A DNA stretch of 64,000 nt, taken from the NCBI RefSeq assembly GCF_022870865.1, contig NZ_CP091508.1:372001-436000 (forward strand), in the 5' to 3' direction. A model generated the notes under the pieces. It did no database searches, was not told the DNA's origin, and worked only from the letters and a program-made list of their open reading frames with translations. Every line of letters begins with the position of its first letter. Position 1 is the first letter of the stretch. Below are positions 50,837 through 61,742 of the stretch, in pieces. Position numbers and translations under genes: made by a program. This DNA is from Uruburuella testudinis (GTDB lineage Bacteria > Pseudomonadota > Gammaproteobacteria > Burkholderiales > Neisseriaceae).

Positions 50837-53134
50837 ATGAACATTACCCGAATCATCGCTCAAGAATTAAACGCCACCGCCGCCCAAATCACTGCCGCTG
50901 TCGAGCTGCTCGATGACGGCGCCACCGTGCCTTTTATCGCCCGTTACCGCAAAGAAGCCACCGGCGGGCTCGACGACACCCAGTTGCGCACGCTGGCCGA
51001 GCGGCTGCAATACCTGCGTGAGCTGGTCGAGCGTAAAGCCACCGTGCTCAAATCGATTGAAGAACAAGGCAAGCTTACCGATGAATTGAAAGCGCAAATT
51101 GAAGCGGCCGACAACAAAACCACGCTCGAAGATTTATACCTGCCCTACAAACCCAAGCGCCGCACCAAAGCCCAAATCGCCCGTGAAAACGGTTTGCAGC
51201 CCTTGGCAGAATTATTGCTCAACACGCCGTCTGAAAGCCCCGAAGCCGCCGCAGAAAGCTATCTCAACGAGCAAGTGCCCGACACCAAAGCCGCATTAGA
51301 CGGCGCCCGTGCGATTTTGATGGAACAATTTGCCGAAGATGCCGAACTGATTGGCCGGTTGCGCGAAAAATTGTGGCACGAAGCCGAGATTCACGCCCAA
51401 GTGATTGCCGGGCAGGAAACAGCAGGCGAAAAATTCAAAGACTATTTCGACCACCGCGAGCCCGTGCGCAGCATGCCCAGTCACCGCGCCTTGGCCGTTT
51501 TGCGCGGCCGCAACGAAAACATTCTTCAGACGGCCTTAAAATACCAGCCCGATGAAACGCCGATTACCGAACAAAGCGAATACGAACAACTCATCGCCAA
51601 ACAATTCAATATTGAAGACCAAGGCCGCGCCGCCGACAAATGGCTGCGCGACAGCGTGCGCTTGGCATGGCGTGCCAAAATCTTCCTGTCGCTGGAATTG
51701 GATGCCTTCAACCGTCTCAAAGAAGCCGCCGACAACGATGCGATTACCGTGTTTGCCCGCAATCTCAAAGATTTGCTGCTGGCCGCCCCCGCCGGCCGCC
51801 TGACCACCCTCGGCCTCGATCCCGGCTACCGCAACGGCGTAAAATGCGCCGTGGTAGACGACACCGGCAAGCTGCTCGACACCGTGATTGTGTATTTGCA
51901 TCAGGAAAACAATATGCTGGCCACCTTGGCCAACCTGATTAAAAAGCACAAGGTCAAACTGATTGCCATCGGCAACGGCACCGCCAGCCGCGAAACCGAC
52001 AAACTCGCCGGCGAATTGGTGCAAGGGCTGCCCGAGATGAAGCTGCACAAAATCGTGGTGAGCGAAGCCGGCGCATCCATCTATTCCGCCTCCGAGCTGG
52101 CCGCCAAAGAATTTCCCGAGCTGGATGTCTCCTTGCGCGGCGCCGTTTCCATCGCCCGCCGCCTGCAAGACCCGTTGGCCGAGCTGGTGAAAATCGATCC
52201 CAAATCCATCGGCGTCGGCCAATATCAGCACGATGTCAACCAAAGCCAGCTCGCCAAATCGCTGGATGCCGTGGTGGAAGATTGTGTGAACGCCGTGGGC
52301 GTAGATGTTAACACCGCCTCCGCGCCGCTGTTGGCGCGCATTTCCGGCCTCAACCAAACCTTGGCGCACAACATCGTGCAATACCGAGATGAAAACGGCG
52401 CTTTCCCGAGCCGCAAAGCCCTGCTCAAAGTGCCGCGTCTGGGCGACAAAACCTACGAGCAGGCCGCCGGTTTTTTGCGCATCAACGGCGGCAAAGAGCC
52501 GCTCGATGCCAGCGCCGTCCACCCCGAAGCCTACCCCGTGGTTGCCAAAATGCTCGCCGACAGTCAAATCTGCGCCGCCGAGCTGATCGGCAACCGCGAT
52601 AAAATCAAACAAATCAAACCTGCGCAATACACCAACGAGCAATTCGGCCTGCCCACCATTCTCGATATTTTGAGCGAACTCGAAAAACCCGGCCGCGACC
52701 CGCGCGGCGAGTTTCAGACGGCCACCTTCGCCGAAGGCATAAACGAAATCAAAGACCTGCAAATCGGCATGATATTGGAAGGCGTGGTCAGCAACGTGGC
52801 CAACTTCGGCGCCTTCGTCGACATCGGCGTGCATCAGGATGGCTTGGTGCATATCTCCACCTTATCCGACAAATTCGTACAAGACCCGCGCGAAGTGGTG
52901 AAAGCCGGCGACGTGGTGAAAGTAAAAGTGATGGAAGTTGATGCCGTGAGAAAACGGATTGCGCTGAGCATGCGGCTGGATGACAAACCCGGCCAAGCAG
53001 TCAAACACGACAGGCCGTCTGAACGTTCAACAGGCGCACGCCGCGATAACCGCAGCAATACACGCAGCCAGCAACGTGAAAAAGCACCGAATAATTCGGC
53101 GATGGCAGATGCATTTGCGAAGTTGAAAAGGTAG
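50837..53134 (+). CDS. tex: Tex-family transcription accessory protein (S1 RNA-binding)
   Basis: A protein of 765 residues from the ATG at 50837 ([18 protein letters not shown]). N-terminal helical Tex domain, YqgF-like RNase H fold (about 325-455; [17 protein letters not shown]), helix-hairpin-helix ([25 protein letters not shown]) and a C-terminal S1 domain (about 640-715; [29 protein letters not shown]). Tex-type proteins affect transcription and RNA metabolism. A hairpin shared with the tracrRNA terminator follows. Confidence 0.95.
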
Positions 53135-53148
53135 GGAATTGATGATGT

Positions 53149-53183
53149 AAAAATGGGAAACGGCGCACCGGAGTGCGCCGTTT
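53149..53183. terminator. Bidirectional terminator: tracrRNA (minus) and tex (plus)
   Basis: AAACGGCGCACC and GGAGTGCGCCGTTT make a strong GC stem. On the minus strand it is followed by CCCATTTTT; on the plus strand by TTTAATTTTTT. Confidence 0.85.
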
Positions 53184-53252
53184 AATTTTTTGGATTTAGT
53201 CACAAGGACATCACCTTGTTAACGGAAATAATCCAATCTCTTTTAAAGTACG
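53149..53252 (-). ncRNA. tracrRNA of the type II-C CRISPR system
   Basis: Minus strand, about 104 nt. The anti-repeat at 53233-53251 matches 19 consecutive bases of the CRISPR repeat (GTACTTTAAAAGAGATTGG), followed by a bulge and a shorter second pairing block (CCG, AAC). Then come a small stem-loop ACAAGG/CCTTGT (53202-53219), a nexus-like element, a single-stranded A-rich stretch and the terminator hairpin. It should pair with the 5' half of the crRNA repeat and load Cas9. The position, upstream of and divergent from cas9, is common in II-C loci. Size and ends are predicted, not measured. Confidence 0.85.
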
Positions 53253-53257
53253 GTCTA

Positions 53258-53286
53258 ATTATATTAGATTAAACACGTTACTACAA
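53258..53286 (-). promoter_or_regulatory. tracrRNA promoter
   Basis: Minus strand -35 TTGTAG (53281-53286), 17 nt, -10 TATAAT (53258-53263). The predicted start, about 53251-53252, is exactly at the anti-repeat. The dyad ACAAG-TTT-CTTGT (53283-53295) overlaps the -35. Confidence 0.8.
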
Positions 53287-53307
53287 GTTTCTTGTTTGGT
53301 GTATATT
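53278..53307 (+). promoter_or_regulatory. Possible cas9 promoter, overlapping the tracrRNA promoter
   Basis: Plus strand TTACTA (53278-53283), 18 nt, TATATT (53302-53307), 42 bp before the cas9 ATG. A weak match that faces the tracrRNA promoter, so the two may compete. Confidence 0.4.
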
Positions 53308-53348
53308 TACCCAAATAGTTATTTTGAATCATAAGGGAGATGTGGGTT

Positions 53349-56300
53349 ATGAATTACCGTCTGGGTTTTGATTTGGGTTATACATCATTGGGTTGGGCTT
53401 GCATTTTGCTGGATAATGATGATCAACCATGTGAGGTACACGATTTCGGTGCGCGTATTTTCCCGTCCGGGCGGGATGCTAAAAGCAAACAACCTACATC
53501 AGTAGAGCGCCGTAAGAAAAGGGGCGCGCGCCGCAATCGTGACCGTTATTTGGCAAGGCGGTCGCGTTTGCTCGCCCAAATGATAGCGTTTGGTTTGCAA
53601 CCTGAAAATCAATCAGAGCGGCGTGAGTTGGCCAAGCAAGAGCCGTTGGCGTTGCGGGCAAAAGGTATCAGCGAGCAATTAACGCCGTTTGAGCTGGGAC
53701 GGGCGTTGTTCCATTTAAATCAGCGGCGAGGTTTTCAATCGAATCGAATTGCTAAACGACAAGGTGGGGAAGATGAAGCTGGTTTGAAAAAAGGCATTCA
53801 TGCATTGGAAGGCCGTCTGCAAGAGAGCCGGCAGACTCTAGGCCAATATCTGTATGCCCGATTGGAAAAAAACCTTAATACCCGCTTGAGTAAGGAAGAG
53901 ACTGATGAACGCTGGACTTCGCGCCAAATGTATCGGGATGAGTTTGAACGCTTGATGAAAACACAACAGATTTATCATCCGACATTGCTGGCGGATGACG
54001 TGGTTGCTGCTTTACGCGAGACTATTTTCTATCAACGTCCGCTCAAGATAAAAGAAGCCGGATTTTGCGCATTGTTGGACGGGAAAAGGCGGGCCCGCTT
54101 GGCGTATCCGCAAATGCAGCGGTTTCGCATTTATCAGGAAGTTAATAATCTGGATACGGTAAAAGAAACAGCGGATACACCGGAAATTACACCGGAAATG
54201 CGACAGCAGTTGGTTCAATATCTGTGTGAAGATTTTTCCAAGTTGCGAAAAGACGGCGTATTAAGTTGGCATGCTATTCAAAAGATTATCGGCATTAAAG
54301 GTGTGAAATTCAATTTGGATGCCTTGGGACGTGGCGGACTGCAAGCGGACACTACCTCCCGGGCTATGATGACGGCGGCTCCTGATTGGTGGCCGACTTT
54401 GGATGATACGCAACAACGGGATGTTGTAGATGCTGTGATGAGCGCACAAACCGATACCGATCTGCAGCAACGGCTTAAGGTGAAATTTGATGCACTTCCG
54501 GAAAGAATTTCTGCGGCATTGGCAAAAGTCAGTTTGCCTGAAGGTTATGGCCGTATATCGATTGATGCGGCTGAATTACTGTTGCCGCCTTTGAGCGAAG
54601 GCAAGGTTTATAGTGATGCCTGCCGGTCAGTGGGTATCAATCACAGTGATGATTATGATGGTCTGCTTTATACTCAAGGCGATCTGCCTTTTTATGGTGA
54701 GGTATTACAAAAACATGTTGTAGGCGGCATCAGGACAGCACAATATCGTGAAAAGCCTGAAGTTTATTACGGGAAAATCAATAATCCGACCGTGCATATG
54801 GCATTAAATCAATTCCGGCGGGTGCTGAATGAGCTGGTTCAACAATATGGCTGCGCTCCGAAGGAAATTCATTTGGAGCTGGCGCGTGAAACGGCGCTTT
54901 CAGCTAAAGATTTGGCCAAATTGAATCAAGAGCATAGTAATAATCGAAGAAACAATGAAAAAATCAATGAGATCCTGCGGAAATTGAATGTTGCTGAATC
55001 TTATGATAATCGAATGAAGTACCGTCTGTGGGAAGATTTGGATAATGATCCCAGTGGCCGTTGTTGTCCGCTGAGCGGTAAGGTTATCAGCTTGGATTTG
55101 CTGTTTTCATCACAAATTGAAGTGGAGCACATTATTCCTTTCTCGCGCAGCTTTGATGATTCACGCAACAATAAAATGGTTTGTTTCAAGTTGGACAATG
55201 TTTTGAAAGGAGATGACACTCCTTATGAGGCATTCGGACAGTCGGATAAGTGGCCTGATATTTTGGCACGTGCCAAAAAAATGTCACCTGATGTGCACAA
55301 AGGCGGTAAAAATGCCAGCGGGTTTCGTGTAAACAAATTTTGGCGTTTTCTGCCTGATGCAATGGAACAATTGCAAGGTGATGCTGAAAGTTTTTTGGCA
55401 CGGCAATTGAACGATACCAAATATATGACACGTGTGGCACGGCGTTATGCCGAATATGTTGCCGGTAAAAACCATGTTTTGGCGATTAAAGGCAAATTTA
55501 CTGCTGATTTACGTCATCACTGGGGGCTGGACGAATTAACCGGCAATTTAGTGGAAGGCCGTTTTCAAAAAGACCGCAGTAATCATCACCATCACGCTAT
55601 TGATGCAATTGTGATTGCCTTGAGTAGCCCAAGCATGATTCAAAAATTAGCGCAAGCCAATAAGCGTGCATACAAGCAGGAGGCAGATAAGATGGATTTG
55701 GACGTACCATTACCGTTTCCTGATTTTTCGGTAGCGGAGATCAAAGCACGTTTGCAGACCTTGGTGATTTCGCATAAGCAGAATCATAAAAGCCCGGAGC
55801 AGGCGCGAGCGCATGGCGGCAGTATCGGCCAGTTGCATGAAGACACCAATTATGGGCACATTCATGACAATATTTATGCGACTCGAAAGGATTTGCTGGC
55901 TGATAAATTCTCTAGCCGGAAAGATATTGATGAAATTGCCAGTCGAACAATCCGTGAAGCAGTGATGGCACTGTTTGAACCTTATGCTGATGAAAAAGGC
56001 AAGCTGAAAGACAGCAATAAGACGGCATACCATCAGGGTTTGGAAGCATTTAAACAGCAATATGGTGTGAAAAAAGTGCGCATTCACCAAGCCAAGAACG
56101 GACTCATTCCCATTTGTGATTCAGATGGCCATGCTTACCGTTATGTAATAGGCGGTAATAATTTTTGTGCAGAAATTTGGATGCCAACTAAAGGTAAAAA
56201 AGCAGGGAAGTGGCAGTGTGAAATTATCCGCAATTTTGATATCAACCAGAAAAACTTCCTGCCCAAGTGGCGGCAGGAAAATCCAACTGCTATGAAAATT

Positions 56301-56552
56301 ATGCGTTTACAAATTAATGATATGGTTGCTTTGGATCGAGATGGCAAGCGGGTCATTTGCAGGGTGCAGAAAATGAATGTGAGGGGGCAGGTTATTTTAC
56401 GGCATCACAATGACAGTGAAACAAAAGACAGTACGGGGATTTCCACTTCAGCCGGAACACTGCAATCCCAAAATGCCCGTAAACTGTTTGTTTCCCCAAG
56501 TGGGAGAGTATATGACCCCGGCCGGGCAAAGCAGCCCAAACAGAAAGGCTAG
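53349..56552 (+). CDS. cas9: CRISPR-associated endonuclease Cas9, type II-C
   Basis: A protein of 1067 residues from the ATG at 53349 (AAGGGAG 10 nt upstream; an ATG at 53340 is too close to it). RuvC-I FDLGYTSLGW with D8; arginine-rich bridge helix (about 54-82); RuvC-II IHLELARE with E510; HNH VEHIIPFSRSFDDSRNNK with H594; RuvC-III HHAIDA with H748/H749 and D752; then WED and PAM-interacting regions. All catalytic residues are present. The size fits compact II-C enzymes. It cuts DNA guided by crRNA:tracrRNA. GC is lower than in neighbouring core genes, pointing to transfer. Confidence 0.97.
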   Translation: MNYRLGFDLGYTSLGWACILLDNDDQPCEVHDFGARIFPSGRDAKSKQPTSVERRKKRGARRNRDRYLARRSRLLAQMIAFGLQPENQSERRELAKQEPLALRAKGISEQLTPFELGRALFHLNQRRGFQSNRIAKRQGGEDEAGLKKGIHALEGRLQESRQTLGQYLYARLEKNLNTRLSKEETDERWTSRQMYRDEFERLMKTQQIYHPTLLADDVVAALRETIFYQRPLKIKEAGFCALLDGKRRARLAYPQMQRFRIYQEVNNLDTVKETADTPEITPEMRQQLVQYLCEDFSKLRKDGVLSWHAIQKIIGIKGVKFNLDALGRGGLQADTTSRAMMTAAPDWWPTLDDTQQRDVVDAVMSAQTDTDLQQRLKVKFDALPERISAALAKVSLPEGYGRISIDAAELLLPPLSEGKVYSDACRSVGINHSDDYDGLLYTQGDLPFYGEVLQKHVVGGIRTAQYREKPEVYYGKINNPTVHMALNQFRRVLNELVQQYGCAPKEIHLELARETALSAKDLAKLNQEHSNNRRNNEKINEILRKLNVAESYDNRMKYRLWEDLDNDPSGRCCPLSGKVISLDLLFSSQIEVEHIIPFSRSFDDSRNNKMVCFKLDNVLKGDDTPYEAFGQSDKWPDILARAKKMSPDVHKGGKNASGFRVNKFWRFLPDAMEQLQGDAESFLARQLNDTKYMTRVARRYAEYVAGKNHVLAIKGKFTADLRHHWGLDELTGNLVEGRFQKDRSNHHHHAIDAIVIALSSPSMIQKLAQANKRAYKQEADKMDLDVPLPFPDFSVAEIKARLQTLVISHKQNHKSPEQARAHGGSIGQLHEDTNYGHIHDNIYATRKDLLADKFSSRKDIDEIASRTIREAVMALFEPYADEKGKLKDSNKTAYHQGLEAFKQQYGVKKVRIHQAKNGLIPICDSDGHAYRYVIGGNNFCAEIWMPTKGKKAGKWQCEIIRNFDINQKNFLPKWRQENPTAMKIMRLQINDMVALDRDGKRVICRVQKMNVRGQVILRHHNDSETKDSTGISTSAGTLQSQNARKLFVSPSGRVYDPGRAKQPKQKG

Positions 56553-56554
56553 CT

Positions 56555-57448
56555 ATGTCTGTTGTGGAAATCAGCGAACAAAGTGTTTATTTGCATACTG
56601 AGAGAGGCTTCCTGCTGTTAGCAAAAGGACAGCAGGAAGTTTCCAGAATTGATTTGGACCACATCACAGCCATTATCGCTAAAGCTCATGGGCTGACTTA
56701 CTCTCACAATCTTTTAGTCAAACTGTCAGAGCGGAATATTCCTTTGGTGTTAACCGACAGCAGTTTTATGCCGGTCAGCATTATACAGCCAGTGGCTGTC
56801 CATCATGCACCAGTGCCAGTGTTGGCTGCACAAATAGCAGCCACAAACGGTCAAAATAATCTTTTGTGGCAGAAAATTATTCAGGCAAAAATCAAAATGC
56901 AGGCGGCTGTATTGAATGAAATCGGTCTGCCCGATCATGATTTACTTGATCTGAGGGCAAAGGTTTCATCGGGTGACCGTAGCAATGTAGAAGCTCAAGC
57001 TGCGAGAAAATACTGGGTTTTATTGTTTGGCCAAGCTTTTCGCCGTCATCAATATGGCGAACAGCCAAATAGCTTGCTAAATTACGGCTATACAATACTT
57101 CGCAGCACTCTGGCACGAGAAATTTGTGCCGCCGGCCTGCACCCTGCGATAGGCATACATCATAAACACCGGCACAATGCTTTTTGCCTTGCTGATGATT
57201 TAATTGAGCCATTCCGTCCTTTAGTTGATTACACTGTCTATCAGCTTGTGCAGAATGGGCATGAAGATTTGTGTGCACACAGCAAGAAAATCTTGGTAGA
57301 TGTATTAGAACGGCTATTAAGGGTCGATACGCGCTGGCAAACGGTTGCCAATAGTATGCAAATACTGTCGCAGAGCTTGGCAAAAAGTTATTTGAACAAT
57401 AACCAAGCTTTGAAATTACCTAAATCTATGCTAAAGCGTTTTATATAG
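56555..57448 (+). CDS. cas1: CRISPR-associated endonuclease Cas1
   Basis: The protein has 297 residues and starts 2 bp after the cas9 stop. An N-terminal beta domain and a helical catalytic domain with E146 (NVEAQAARKYW), histidines in IHHKHRHNAF (201-210) and D214/D215 form the metal site. Cas1 with Cas2 integrates new spacers. Sequence type matches subtype II-C Cas1. Confidence 0.96.
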   Translation: MSVVEISEQSVYLHTERGFLLLAKGQQEVSRIDLDHITAIIAKAHGLTYSHNLLVKLSERNIPLVLTDSSFMPVSIIQPVAVHHAPVPVLAAQIAATNGQNNLLWQKIIQAKIKMQAAVLNEIGLPDHDLLDLRAKVSSGDRSNVEAQAARKYWVLLFGQAFRRHQYGEQPNSLLNYGYTILRSTLAREICAAGLHPAIGIHHKHRHNAFCLADDLIEPFRPLVDYTVYQLVQNGHEDLCAHSKKILVDVLERLLRVDTRWQTVANSMQILSQSLAKSYLNNNQALKLPKSMLKRFI

Positions 57449-57475
57449 CGCTTTACAAATTTTAATTGTTTGCTT

Positions 57476-57802
57476 ATGAAACATTCAGGATACCGAACAA
57501 TGTGGCTTGTTGTGATGTTTGATTTGCCTACGCTGGATGAGGCAGACCGCCAGAGAGCGAACCGGTTTAGAAATTTCTTGAAAGACAACGGCTTTCAAAT
57601 GTCGCAATTGTCAGTTTATTTCAAATATATTGGTGTTCGTGAAAATTCGCCTAAAATCATTAAGTTGATCGAAGACAATACACCTGTTGGGAAAGTGAGC
57701 ATTCTGTTTTTTACTGATAAACAGTTTGCCGATATTATTTGTATTCACAATAACCAAATTGAGAGGATGCCGGATAAACCCGATCAGCTTTTATTGTTTT
57801 GA
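57476..57802 (+). CDS. cas2: CRISPR-associated protein Cas2
   Basis: The protein has 108 residues from the ATG at 57476, 27 bp after cas1. A ferredoxin-like fold with the conserved aspartate D16 in LVVMFDLPTL, then MSQLSVYFKY. It bridges two Cas1 dimers during spacer integration. No csn2 or cas4 is present, which fixes the subtype as II-C. Confidence 0.95.
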   Translation: MKHSGYRTMWLVVMFDLPTLDEADRQRANRFRNFLKDNGFQMSQLSVYFKYIGVRENSPKIIKLIEDNTPVGKVSILFFTDKQFADIICIHNNQIERMPDKPDQLLLF

Positions 57803-57821
57803 TATTTTTGAGATAAAGAAA

Positions 57822-57859
57822 AAGCGATAACTATCTGTAATGTTGATAGTTTATCGCTT
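57822..57859 (-). terminator. Terminator of array transcripts / leader-side hairpin between cas2 and the array
   Basis: AAGCGATAA-CTATC (57822-57835) pairs with GATAGTTTATCGCTT (57845-57859), one-base bulge, 9-nt loop. On the minus strand the stem is followed by TTTTTCTTT, so crRNA transcription coming from the array should stop here, before running antisense into cas2. It ends 2 bp before the first repeat. Confidence 0.8.
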
Positions 57860-57861
57860 CT

Positions 57862-60800
57862 ATTGTACTTTAAAAGAGATTGGCTTAGAACCGCAACTGG
57901 AATGCCTAGCATACCAATAGCCGCCAAATTGTACTTTAAAAGAGATTGGCTTAGAACCGCAACTTATGCTAGAATCTATGCTTTCCCACCCTCATTGTAC
58001 TTTAAAAGAGATTGGCTTAGAACCGCAACATCCCCCTGCTGGGGATATTTTCAATTAATATTGTACTTTAAAAGAGATTGGCTTAGAACCGCAACAGGCG
58101 GATGTTTGATAGCGTTCGGGCTGGTATTGTACTTTAAAAGAGATTGGCTTAGAACCGCAACCCAGCCTGGTTATCACACCGAAAGAAACCAATTGTACTT
58201 TAAAAGAGATTGGCTTAGAACCGCAACAGGGACGATGGTAGACGTGTTGAACTCTGCATTGTACTTTAAAAGAGATTGGCTTAGAACCGCAACGAACGGG
58301 GTGACGTGATGAATGCGCGCCAGATTGTACTTTAAAAGAGATTGGCTTAGAACCGCAACTTCTGGTTTTCCTTCTTGATTTGTGTATGGATTGTACTTTA
58401 AAAGAGATTGGCTTAGAACCGCAACTGAGGGGGCAGGCGCATGACATTCGCACCAATTGTACTTTAAAAGAGATTGGCTTAGAACCGCAACTGAGTAATT
58501 TTACTTAACCCTACTGTTCAGATTGTACTTTAAAAGAGATTGGCTTAGAACCGCAACCATACGCCCGTTGATGCATCATAGCCACGTATTGTACTTTAAA
58601 AGAGATTGGCTTAGAACCGCAACTATATGTAAACATTAATGCCCATACTATATATTGTACTTTAAAAGAGATTGGCTTAGAACCGCAACTACTGTCAGTA
58701 AGCGACTGGTAGTTGAGGAATTGTACTTTAAAAGAGATTGGCTTAGAACCGCAACCTCGGAGGTAGCTTAAAAAACCATTGGAGCATTGTACTTTAAAAG
58801 AGATTGGCTTAGAACCGCAACCTCGGAGGTAGCTTAAAAAACCATTGGAGCATTGTACTTTAAAAGAGATTGGCTTAGAACCGCAACAAACGGCTCTGTT
58901 CTTATAGTTGATGAAGCATTGTACTTTAAAAGAGATTGGCTTAGAACCGCAACTTCGAAGAACGGGAAAAACCCAAAGCCGAAATTGTACTTTAAAAGAG
59001 ATTGGCTTAGAACCGCAACGGTATCGGTAGTATTCACACCAATAAGCTTATTGTACTTTAAAAGAGATTGGCTTAGAACCGCAACTACAAAACCAACATG
59101 CCTAAACACGTTGGTATTGTACTTTAAAAGAGATTGGCTTAGAACCGCAACTAAATGCCCCTAAAAGAACAAAAGCATTGCATTGTACTTTAAAAGAGAT
59201 TGGCTTAGAACCGCAACGTTGCTTCATAATAAGTACCAATGGTATGAATTGTACTTTAAAAGAGATTGGCTTAGAACCGCAACCTCAGCCTCAGGCGACA
59301 AGTGCAAGGTGATATTGTACTTTAAAAGAGATTGGCTTAGAACCGCAACGCTGTTCTTCACCGGAAGACATTAAGCCCAATTGTACTTTAAAAGAGATTG
59401 GCTTAGAACCGCAACACCTCTAGACATATTCAGCACAACAGGCGTATTGTACTTTAAAAGAGATTGGCTTAGAACCGCAACCAATGACTGGTTTTACCGC
59501 AAGCACAGGGCATTGTACTTTAAAAGAGATTGGCTTAGAACCGCAACGATGGTTCAGTAACAACAACAGTCATTCCCATTGTACTTTAAAAGAGATTGGC
59601 TTAGAACCGCAACCATCGGGTGACCCAATACCTTCTTATCTCCATTGTACTTTAAAAGAGATTGGCTTAGAACCGCAACTAAGCGCAAATGTACCTGCTG
59701 CCACCCCGCATTGTACTTTAAAAGAGATTGGCTTAGAACCGCAACTATATTTTACCGATACCTGTTTCCAGCCAAATTGTACTTTAAAAGAGATTGGCTT
59801 AGAACCGCAACAATTCAGGGCAAGGGCGGCATTGGTAAATCATTGTACTTTAAAAGAGATTGGCTTAGAACCGCAACTAATTTAATGGAGAGTGTCCGTT
59901 TCGCCGTATTGTACTTTAAAAGAGATTGGCTTAGAACCGCAACGGTGTTGTTATGAAGGACAACACAATAGCCATTGTACTTTAAAAGAGATTGGCTTAG
60001 AACCGCAACTGCTTATGCGCGCATGTCGCTGGCTCAAGAATTGTACTTTAAAAGAGATTGGCTTAGAACCGCAACCAAGCGCAATGAAACATGGTGGTAC
60101 TCGTTATTGTACTTTAAAAGAGATTGGCTTAGAACCGCAACAGATAACCGACAATATCGAAGCTGGGAAATATTGTACTTTAAAAGAGATTGGCTTAGAA
60201 CCGCAACATCTTGTTTGTTCTGGTTTGCCGTCTTGATATTGTACTTTAAAAGAGATTGGCTTAGAACCGCAACCTCTAATAGTTCGTGGAGATGAAATGG
60301 CCCATTGTACTTTAAAAGAGATTGGCTTAGAACCGCAACAAGACAAACCAACTGCTGTTCTGCAACCTAATTGTACTTTAAAAGAGATTGGCTTAGAACC
60401 GCAACTGTGACGGCTACCGGGTGGCTGCGGTCTTTATTGTACTTTAAAAGAGATTAGCTTAGAACCGCAACCGTACTGGTGCGCTACAGCTATTGCATGA
60501 GATTGTACTTTAAAAGAGATTGGCTTAGAACCGCAACATATGCTTGCGCGCTTCCGCGAGCCATGCATTGTACTTTAAAAGAGATTGGCTTAGAACCGCA
60601 ACTGTGACGGCTACCGGGTGGCTGCGGTCTTTATTGTACTTTAAAAGAGATTGGCTTAGAACCGCAACTTTCCGTTCCTGCGTTTCCGGATAAATCCGAT
60701 TGTACTTTAAAAGAGATTGGCTTAGAACCGCAACCTATGACCGTGCGTTCAACGCGGCCTTGGCATTGTACTTTAAAAGAGATTGGCTTAGAACCGCAAC

Positions 60801-60932
60801 TTTATCCCACTCCGTTATCATTTTCGGGCAATTGTACTTTAAAAGAGATTGGCTTAGAACCGCAACTACACACCCTTATCATCCCAAGCAGTGGCGATTG
60901 TACTTTAAAAGAGATCGGCTTAGAACGGCAAC
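57862..60932 (-). CRISPR. CRISPR array, 47 repeats of 36 bp, 46 spacers (type II-C)
   Basis: The repeat (plus strand) starts ATTGTACTTTAAAAGAGATT and ends GGCTTAGAACCGCAAC. Repeats begin every 66 bp from 57862; all spacers are 30 nt except spacer 41 (29 nt, 60538-60566). The tracrRNA anti-repeat shows that the crRNA strand is minus. In that sense every repeat ends AGTACAAT, giving a -10 box TACAAT with a weak TTCTAA 17 nt upstream. Spacers 14 and 15 are identical, as are 39 and 42. Repeat 40 (60436) has one change and the terminal repeat 47 (60897) two, so the distal end is probably the oldest. Confidence 0.98.
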
Positions 60933-61142
60933 AAGATGCGCTGGTGGGCGGTACTATGAAGGTTATAATTCAGAAAGTTTGATTAGATTTAAAGTAATAT
61001 GCCTTCGGAAAATAATATTTATAGATTCGGCAACTTTCATTCTAAATATTCCTTGTGAATTTTATTTTCAAAAAATTTTTTATTTAAAAGATACGGTTGC
61101 TTCATTTTCTTTTCTTTTCTATAAAATAACGCGGATATAGCT
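60933..61142 (+). other. AT-rich region between array and UDG-like gene
   Basis: No gene. It ends with a good promoter for the next gene: TTGCTT (61097-61102), 17 nt, TATAAA (61120-61125), with a C/T-rich spacer. There is no DUS and no further repeat-like sequence after repeat 47. Confidence 0.6.
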
Positions 61143-61742
61143 ATGGCTGATTTTCCCACCGAAACCCACCCCTTACTTCCATTCACTCCGCCCAATGCCA
61201 AGCTGTTGATGCTTGGCTCGTTTCCACCGCCGCGTGTGCGTTGGAAGATGGATTTTTATTATCCGAATTTCCAAAACGATATGTGGCGGATTTTCGGGCT
61301 GGTGTTTTTTGATGACAAAGATTATTTTGTCGAGGCGGGCGGTAAGGCGTTTAAGGAGCGGCTTATTCGGGATTTTCTCAACGAAAAAGGCATTGCCATC
61401 AGCGATACGGCATATAAAATCAAGCGCTTGCAAGGCAATGCGGCGGATAAATTTTTGCAGATTGTCGAGCCGGTGGATTTGGCGGCTTTGCTGGCACAGA
61501 TGCCGCGTTGCAATACGCTGATGACTACGGGCGAGTTGGCGACGGATACTTTGTTGCAATTGATGCCGTCTGAAACGGTGAAGCCTGCGATTGGCGCTTT
61601 CAGTAAAGCGCAGTTTGCGGGGCGGTGTTTGAGGCTGTATCGGTTGCCGTCGTCGTCGCGGGCGTATCCGTTGGCGTTGGCGAAAAAGGCTGAGGCGTAT
61701 GCGGGTTTTTTTCGGGAAATCGGTTTGCTTGAGGCCGTCTGA
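61143..61742 (+). CDS. Uracil-DNA glycosylase superfamily protein
   Basis: The protein has 199 residues. LLMLGSFPPP (21-30) and FYYPNFQNDMWRIFG (38-52) match the G/U mismatch-type uracil-DNA glycosylase superfamily, with a later TTGELATDTL strand and PSSSRAYPLALAKKAEAY where the DNA-intercalation loop is expected. It probably removes a damaged or mismatched base, or is an inactive relative. It is outside the CRISPR operon, with its own promoter and terminator. Confidence 0.82.
   Translation: MADFPTETHPLLPFTPPNAKLLMLGSFPPPRVRWKMDFYYPNFQNDMWRIFGLVFFDDKDYFVEAGGKAFKERLIRDFLNEKGIAISDTAYKIKRLQGNAADKFLQIVEPVDLAALLAQMPRCNTLMTTGELATDTLLQLMPSETVKPAIGAFSKAQFAGRCLRLYRLPSSSRAYPLALAKKAEAYAGFFREIGLLEAV

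Follow-up and report, generated by a model that had tools for sequence, protein, structure and literature searches.

The closest described systems to the one reported here are CRISPR-Cas9 loci of type II-C. In the meningococcal (Nme) type, 29 Cas9 orthologs are 59.6-70.4% identical to Nme1Cas9 (PMC9433092), and the type II-C system of Dinoroseobacter shibae has a Cas9 of 1,079, a Cas1 of 303 and a Cas2 of 114 amino acids (aa) and the repeat GTTGCGGCTGGACCCCGAATTCTGAACAGCTAAACT (PMC4607530). A survey of commensal Neisseria describes arrays of seven subtypes and multiple putative systems in several species (PMC9238386), so the co-occurrence of systems as such may be known. Two type II systems per genome are reported in Streptococcus thermophilus and Wolinella succinogenes; where a bacterium has two such systems, they are considered to function independently, and dual RNA and Cas9 are interchangeable only between close systems (PMC3936727; this and the other papers are cited from excerpts of their text). 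Here we describe a CRISPR-Cas9 locus at positions 53149-60932 of a 64,000-nt stretch of the Uruburuella testudinis genome (contig NZ_CP091508.1; hereafter the window), which consists of a predicted trans-activating CRISPR RNA (tracrRNA), cas9, cas1, cas2 and an array of 47 repeats and 46 spacers (Table 1). We consider it very likely that this is a second, complete II-C system of a very distant lineage with guide RNAs of its own, probably acquired from other bacteria, that coexists with a resident system of the Nme type. In the open-licence literature, we found no description of the window system or of a Neisseria with two II-C systems.

Gene content of the locus

The family scores of Cas9, Cas1 and Cas2 are far above the NCBIfam cut-offs (100 bits for Cas9, 120 for type II Cas1 and 24.5 for Cas2), and all three reading frames are uninterrupted. 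The catalytic residues of Cas9 are conserved across a 74-row alignment: E510, H594 and N617 in 74 of 74 rows, D8 in all 69 rows with a letter at that position, and H748, H749 and D752 in 73 of 73. With its predicted RuvC and HNH active sites in Cas9, its cas1 and cas2 and a putative tracrRNA that carries an anti-repeat, the locus is assigned to type II-C. The first-pass annotation, made from the window alone, had claimed a complete compact II-C locus, these Cas9 residues except N617, and 47 repeats; open reading frames (ORFs), family scores, array and predicted tracrRNA bear out the first claim, the alignment the second and the repeat count (below) the third.

An alternative in-frame ATG of cas9 at 53340 would give 1070 aa; the start at 53349 is likelier because the purine-rich AAGGGAG ends directly at 53339. 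For cas2, the alternative start is a TTG at 57470. Between tex and the array, a span to which the search for csn2 and cas4 was confined, no additional ORF of at least 80 aa was found between the genes, merely overlapping ones. At residue 747 (~55587-55589), 71 of 73 aligned Cas9s carry arginine but the window Cas9 carries histidine; this residue immediately precedes the conserved HH of RuvC-III and gives an HHHH motif. Two other readings were rejected. An array without working cas genes is ruled out by the intact frames, and an assembly artefact by the single contig and by flanks that are conserved in the sister genome G035.

Table 1 Features of the locus, its flanks and the resident system (window coordinates unless a locus is named)
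Feature	Position	Strand	Details
tex, left flank	50840..53134	+	Tex domains in Pfam
Predicted tracrRNA	53158..53251	-	anti-repeat 53218-53251, small stem-loop, intrinsic-terminator hairpin 53158-53183; divergent from cas9
TATAAT, possible -10 of tracrRNA promoter	53258..53263	-	6 bases upstream of anti-repeat
cas9	53349..56552	+	1067 aa; TIGR01865 585.3 bits; Pfam RuvC_III, HNH_4, Cas9_a
cas1	56555..57448	+	297 aa; TIGR03639 249.5 bits
cas2	57476..57802	+	108 aa; TIGR01573 56.9 bits
Possible CRISPR RNA (crRNA) terminator	57803..57862	-	hairpin and U-rich tail, cas2 end of array
CRISPR array	57862..60932	- (crRNA sense)	47 repeats of 36 nt, 46 spacers; repeat GTTGCGG...TACAAT
Degenerate end repeat	60897..60932	-	2 mismatches; cas2-distal end
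Conserved gene, right flank	61143..61742	+	199 aa; match in 45/46 genus genomes; no Pfam match
Resident Nme-type II-C system	L032 2825-8905 (G000:C1)		1,075-aa Cas9, Cas1-like and Cas2-like ORFs, 21 repeats, divergent tracrRNA

Nearest relatives of the Cas proteins

Compared by blastp with the Cas9s of 41 loci, the window Cas9 is 24-28% identical to 21 from Neisseriaceae (169-213 bits) and 31-35% identical to 20 from other families (436-565 bits), and the two score ranges do not overlap. Cas1 proteins from 18 of the non-Neisseriaceae loci are full-length and score 197-244 bits, all above the 21 from Neisseriaceae (115-163 bits); in the remaining two loci Cas1 is a 75-aa piece at 58 bits (L102) or gave no match (L087). 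Likewise, the Cas2 proteins of 19 non-Neisseriaceae loci (75.5-102 bits) all score above the 21 Neisseriaceae ones (60.5-72 bits). By score, all three window proteins appear nearest to a II-C lineage of non-Neisseriaceae Pseudomonadota, and the repeat and anti-repeat also seem to lean towards it. In a Cas9 tree of 74 rows, 28 of them from Neisseriaceae and with two genomes entered twice, the window Cas9 groups with 37 rows, none of them Neisseriaceae (Shimodaira-Hasegawa-like approximate likelihood ratio test, SH-aLRT, 100), while eight further rows from outside this family group on the side of the Neisseriaceae.

Matches to Cas9 were found in 23 of 46 genomes of the genus, 31 of 83 of the family, 28 of 369 of the class, 47 of 399 of the order and 39 of 398 of the phylum; these sets overlap, and those of the class, order and phylum are samples. 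In profile alignments, long Cas9 matches in the other genus genomes are 30-33% identical and shorter core pieces up to 44%. Outside the family, the best long alignments reach 35-40% over at least 800 residues, and single pieces up to 45%. A collection of plasmids contains 55 records with a Cas9 match, the best at about 34%, and genome_contigs (84,980 species), scanned with peptide patterns, gave eight matching stretches, one of which encodes a relative (30%, in a Planctomycetota genome); such a scan picks up close relatives only, and the window's own genome may be missing from it. The best match in the PDB is to NmeCas9 chains, for example 6kc8, at 187 bits, and no match above 40% over at least 800 residues was detected in the sampled class, order and phylum genomes. 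A near-identical, already characterised Cas9, the counter-example that the first-pass annotation had named, thus turned up in none of these sets.

The system shares its subtype, size, gene order, divergent tracrRNA before cas9 and 36-nt repeat ending in TACAAT with the Nme type, but differs from it in Cas9 identity (24-28% to Nme-type Cas9s, against 59.6-70.4% to Nme1Cas9 within the ortholog set of PMC9433092), in its repeat and in the lack of guide exchange in silico. Membership of the Nme-type group is ruled out by Cas9 identity and repeat, and the earlier framing of the protein among Neisseria Cas9s with varied protospacer-adjacent motifs (PAMs) does not fit such values. The II-C systems of alphaproteobacteria and others, such as that of D. 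shibae as excerpted, are like the window system in gene content and in the GTTGCGG start of the repeat. Similarly, the non-Neisseriaceae relatives that we fetched have a tracrRNA divergent upstream of cas9 (all those checked but L089), the 1-nt bulge described below (L084, L085, L088 and L103) and a TAnnnT repeat end (15 of 16), whereas their Cas9s are at most 40% identical in profile alignments of at least 800 residues, their repeats match at no more than 24 of 36 positions, and the window host lies within the Neisseria-type bacteria. Judged on these comparisons, the system is ordinary in gene content and its Cas9 is unusual, apparently deep-branching and far from the characterised Neisseria Cas9s.

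A resident Nme-type system in the same genome

The genome (G000) has a second cas9 outside the window, about 52 kb downstream of the first. The system to which it belongs, whose cas1 and cas2 were identified by similarity to other loci, is of the Nme type, and its Cas9 scores up to 1,815 bits against NmeCas9 chains over residues 3-1075. Both systems are II-C with a 66-nt period, and the two spacer sets have no 11-mer in common. The window repeat was found in one of the 46 genus genomes, its own, and a Cas9 of the window kind likewise in that genome only; U. testudinis therefore carries the usual system of its genus and the window system. Two type II systems per genome are a trait shared with S. 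thermophilus and W. succinogenes (PMC3936727, in excerpt), but the pair described here consists of two II-C systems, one of them apparently foreign to the genus. Two genomes of the class set, G124 and G128, each contain a pair of Cas9-like frames located on separate contigs; two Cas9s per genome may thus occur elsewhere, with contamination a possible cause. In the resident array, spacer 5 is identical to its neighbour, spacer 6.

Predicted guide-RNA pairing within and across the two systems

Arrays were detected in 20 of the 21 Neisseriaceae loci, all with the Nme-type repeat, and in 17 of the 20 loci from other families. Aligned without gaps, the window repeat is identical to the Nme repeat at 15 of 36 positions and does not share the Nme-type start, GTTGTAGCTYCC. 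Among the repeats of 16 relatives, that of G1152 matches it at 24 of 36 positions and the other 15 at 16-19, each more than the Nme repeat. This closeness is clear for G1152 alone, and three of the 16 are nearer to the Nme repeat than to that of the window. One relative, L089 (G223), has a repeat that starts with GTTGTAG like the Nme type, and its anti-repeat lies beyond the array.

Anti-repeats were sought in 20 loci; in L088 and L092 they overlap the start of the stop-to-stop cas9 frame. The window anti-repeat ends in CCGTTAAC and has a 1-nt bulge near this end, as in L084, L085, L088 and L103, which also have its TTAAC end in common; in the Nme type, a broader internal mismatch is seen instead. 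The first-pass annotation had described repeat and anti-repeat as unlike the meningococcal ones, and both comparisons agree with it.

We predicted the duplexes that each anti-repeat would form with either repeat. The two systems' own pairs reach -36.5 and -46.6 kcal/mol and the cross-system pairs -13.5 and -13.4 kcal/mol, against -10.5 to -12.4 kcal/mol (standard deviation, sd, ~2.9) for shuffled repeats. Pairing is thus predicted to be strong within each system and near background across the two, in line with the separate guide-RNA group proposed earlier from the distinct repeat. Because no pairing is predicted between the anti-repeat of one system and the repeat of the other, the two should run independently.

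The region around the predicted tracrRNA (53150-53252) folds at -33.6 kcal/mol (z -5.0). Its terminator-like site is present on both strands and may therefore also serve tex. A hexamer 17 nt upstream of the possible -10 box, TTGTAG, matches the -35 consensus at three of six positions, a poor fit, and a consensus promoter scan has no listing at this TATAAT. At the gathering threshold, the single Rfam match in the window is a tRNA, so no Rfam family covers the predicted tracrRNA at that threshold.

Array and spacers

The repeats are highly uniform: 45 of the 47 are exact, one has a single mismatch and the last is the degenerate one of Table 1. With up to three mismatches allowed, 47 copies were found in the 2.95-Mb genome (2,949,123 bases, one contig) and none in a reversed-reading control. 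Spacers are 30 nt long in 45 of 46 cases and 29 nt in one, and 44 of them are distinct. From its predicted pairing with the tracrRNA, we assign the crRNA sense to the minus strand. The degenerate repeat is at the cas2-distal end, as are those of the resident array (3 and 1 mismatches), an arrangement that suggests spacer acquisition at the cas2 end.

Each of the 47 repeats ends in TACAAT. This end, together with the TAnnnT in 15 of 16 relatives' repeats, is compatible with the repeat-embedded crRNA promoters that are typical of II-C arrays (PMC10309648, in excerpt), but promoter-like sites are not in excess in the array (see below). At the cas2 end, the fold of 57802-57862 reaches -16.8 kcal/mol (z -6.7), and none of 200 shuffles was as stable; the consensus terminator scan does not list this hairpin, whose loop of 9 exceeds the limit of 8 set in that scan.

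Within the array, the neighbouring spacers 14 and 15 (58756-58851) are identical, as are spacers 39 and 42 (60406-60632), which have two others between them; both pairs suggest duplication inside the array. One frame of spacer 30 (59812-59841) translates to IQGKGGIGKS, which we take to be a P-loop resembling that of partition ATPases, so one target may be a plasmid.

Insertion site and signs of transfer

The GC (guanine plus cytosine) contents of the window cas9, cas1 and cas2 are 0.46, 0.43 and 0.38, against 0.50, 0.51 and 0.48 for the resident genes, and that of tex is 0.57. The DNA uptake core GCCGTCTGAA has 68 copies in the window, 54 of them in the AG form, but none between 53,014 and 61,565, where about eight would be expected from the window-wide density alone. 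These cores, and the Nme-type systems of this genome and its genus relatives, mark the host as a Neisseria-type bacterium. A low GC content had earlier suggested transfer of the block; with the missing uptake core, the presence in one of 46 genus genomes and a variable insertion site, acquisition by transfer is now likely.

The block lies between two conserved genes, tex and the 199-aa gene of the right flank, which is presumably DNA glycosylase-like. A tex match is present in all 46 genus genomes, although it is a weak S1-domain match only in G032 and G034 and partial in G029 and G031. The nearest sister by flanks, G035 (tex 90% and right-flank gene 86% identical), also has both genes, and the 3.2 kb that separate them encode a C5 methyltransferase and an endonuclease-like protein. 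In 15 of the 46 genomes, the two genes lie on one strand within 13 kb of each other, 2.0 to 12.1 kb apart; among these, the right-flank gene is in pieces in G001 and G016 and tex in G042. We compared window 53134-61143 with the corresponding intervals of the 14 other genomes (L159, L160, L164, L165 and L170-L179).

Defence-family genes occupy the interval in 11 of the 15 genomes (10 of 14 without the window genome). According to family searches, the cargo is CRISPR-Cas9 in the window genome, of the restriction-modification type in six (G035, G044, G006, G026, G016 and G017), SIR2-like in two (G041 and G001) and of the RloA/RloB type in two (G028 and G008). The other four contain a Fic protein (G002), a TPR protein that weakly matches a defence library (G003), RhuM (G040) and a 195-aa ORF that was not searched (G042). 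These calls come from Pfam runs on 20 of the 48 listed ORFs and from searches with seven proteins of five other intervals. Literature listings showed no paper that presents this interval as a defence site; in the meningococcal capsule locus, tex also makes up region E (PMC3898611, in excerpt).

Proposed mechanism and alternative explanations

If the system works as its anatomy suggests, Cas1 and Cas2 would insert 30-bp spacers adjoining cas2, and crRNA transcription (minus strand) would run towards cas2 and might in part be driven by the TACAAT -10 boxes that end each repeat. The divergent tracrRNA would base-pair with the repeat, and Cas9 loaded with the dual RNA would cut matching DNA beside a PAM, for which a motif separate from those of the Nme type is possible.

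Some of our results weigh against a functional system acquired from a distant lineage. The window Cas9 has a very long end branch (1.51), and constraining it to group with the 28 rows from Neisseriaceae costs 30.7 log units, yet the approximately unbiased test does not reject the constrained tree at the 0.05 level (p-AU 0.085). The placement within II-C is therefore unsure and the tree is not decisive; the Cas9 tree that the first-pass annotation had called for gave the grouping outside Neisseriaceae without excluding the other topology. Nor was a donor with a near-identical locus found among the genomes and contigs searched. The branch length and the constrained tree could indicate a rapidly evolving offshoot of the Nme-type Cas9s of Neisseriaceae, whose distance would reflect fast change and not transfer. 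The repeat would fit this too, in that it retains the GTTG...TACAAT ends of the Nme repeat and, G1152 apart, favours the other lineage only slightly. Yet the scores of all three Cas proteins point to the non-Neisseriaceae lineage, as does the anti-repeat bulge, an ordinary Nme-type system is kept in the same genome, and the window repeat is in none of the 45 other genus genomes. We thus regard such an offshoot as improbable.

A second set of results that count against our reading concerns activity. The consensus promoter scan of the array gave 5 sites, with no excess over the 6.7 in shuffles (sd 2.5), which together with the foreign GC would fit an immigrant whose genes are intact by sequence but which is not expressed, or does not acquire spacers, in this host. 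Targets were not found either: the whole window array had no match in 50,697 phage records, 19-20-mers (one each from spacers 1, 5, 7, 33, 39 and 44) had no exact match in viral contigs, and spacers 33 and 39, searched whole with up to three mismatches in the 46 genus genomes, matched the array alone. The resident Nme-type array likewise had no match in the phage records. The lack of protospacers says little, since the individual searches covered six of the 44 distinct spacers, and the PAM that the first-pass annotation had hoped to read from protospacer flanks was not obtained. That the system is silent seems unlikely to us, given intact cas9, cas1 and cas2 frames, catalytic residues that are kept, 45 of 47 exact repeats and a TATAAT before the tracrRNA. 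The two Cas9 systems might also have adaptation genes or guides in common and function as a unit, and their common subtype and period and their location about 52 kb apart in one genome would allow it. This is the least probable of the alternatives and, in our view, very improbable: each system has its own cas1 and cas2, cross-system pairing is near background, no spacer 11-mer is common to both, and exchange of dual RNA and Cas9 is confined to close systems (PMC3936727, in excerpt).

Implications

For delivery, compact Cas9s are in demand. The window Cas9 is far outside the set of 60-70% Nme1 orthologs in PMC9433092 (in excerpt), which makes it, by sequence, a plausible candidate source of a new small Cas9. 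A more speculative idea, which we hold to be possible but doubtful, is that this deep-branching Cas9, so far known from one species, has its own PAM and dual RNA and forms an independent second layer that stays active despite anti-CRISPRs against the Nme-type Cas9. Were this true, the protein would provide a compact Cas9 that is orthogonal to those from Neisseria employed in editing. For the genus, the stretch from tex to the glycosylase-like gene is indicated as a site for defence genes. A host with two II-C systems offers a natural test of their independence and of whether such a pair withstands different anti-CRISPRs.

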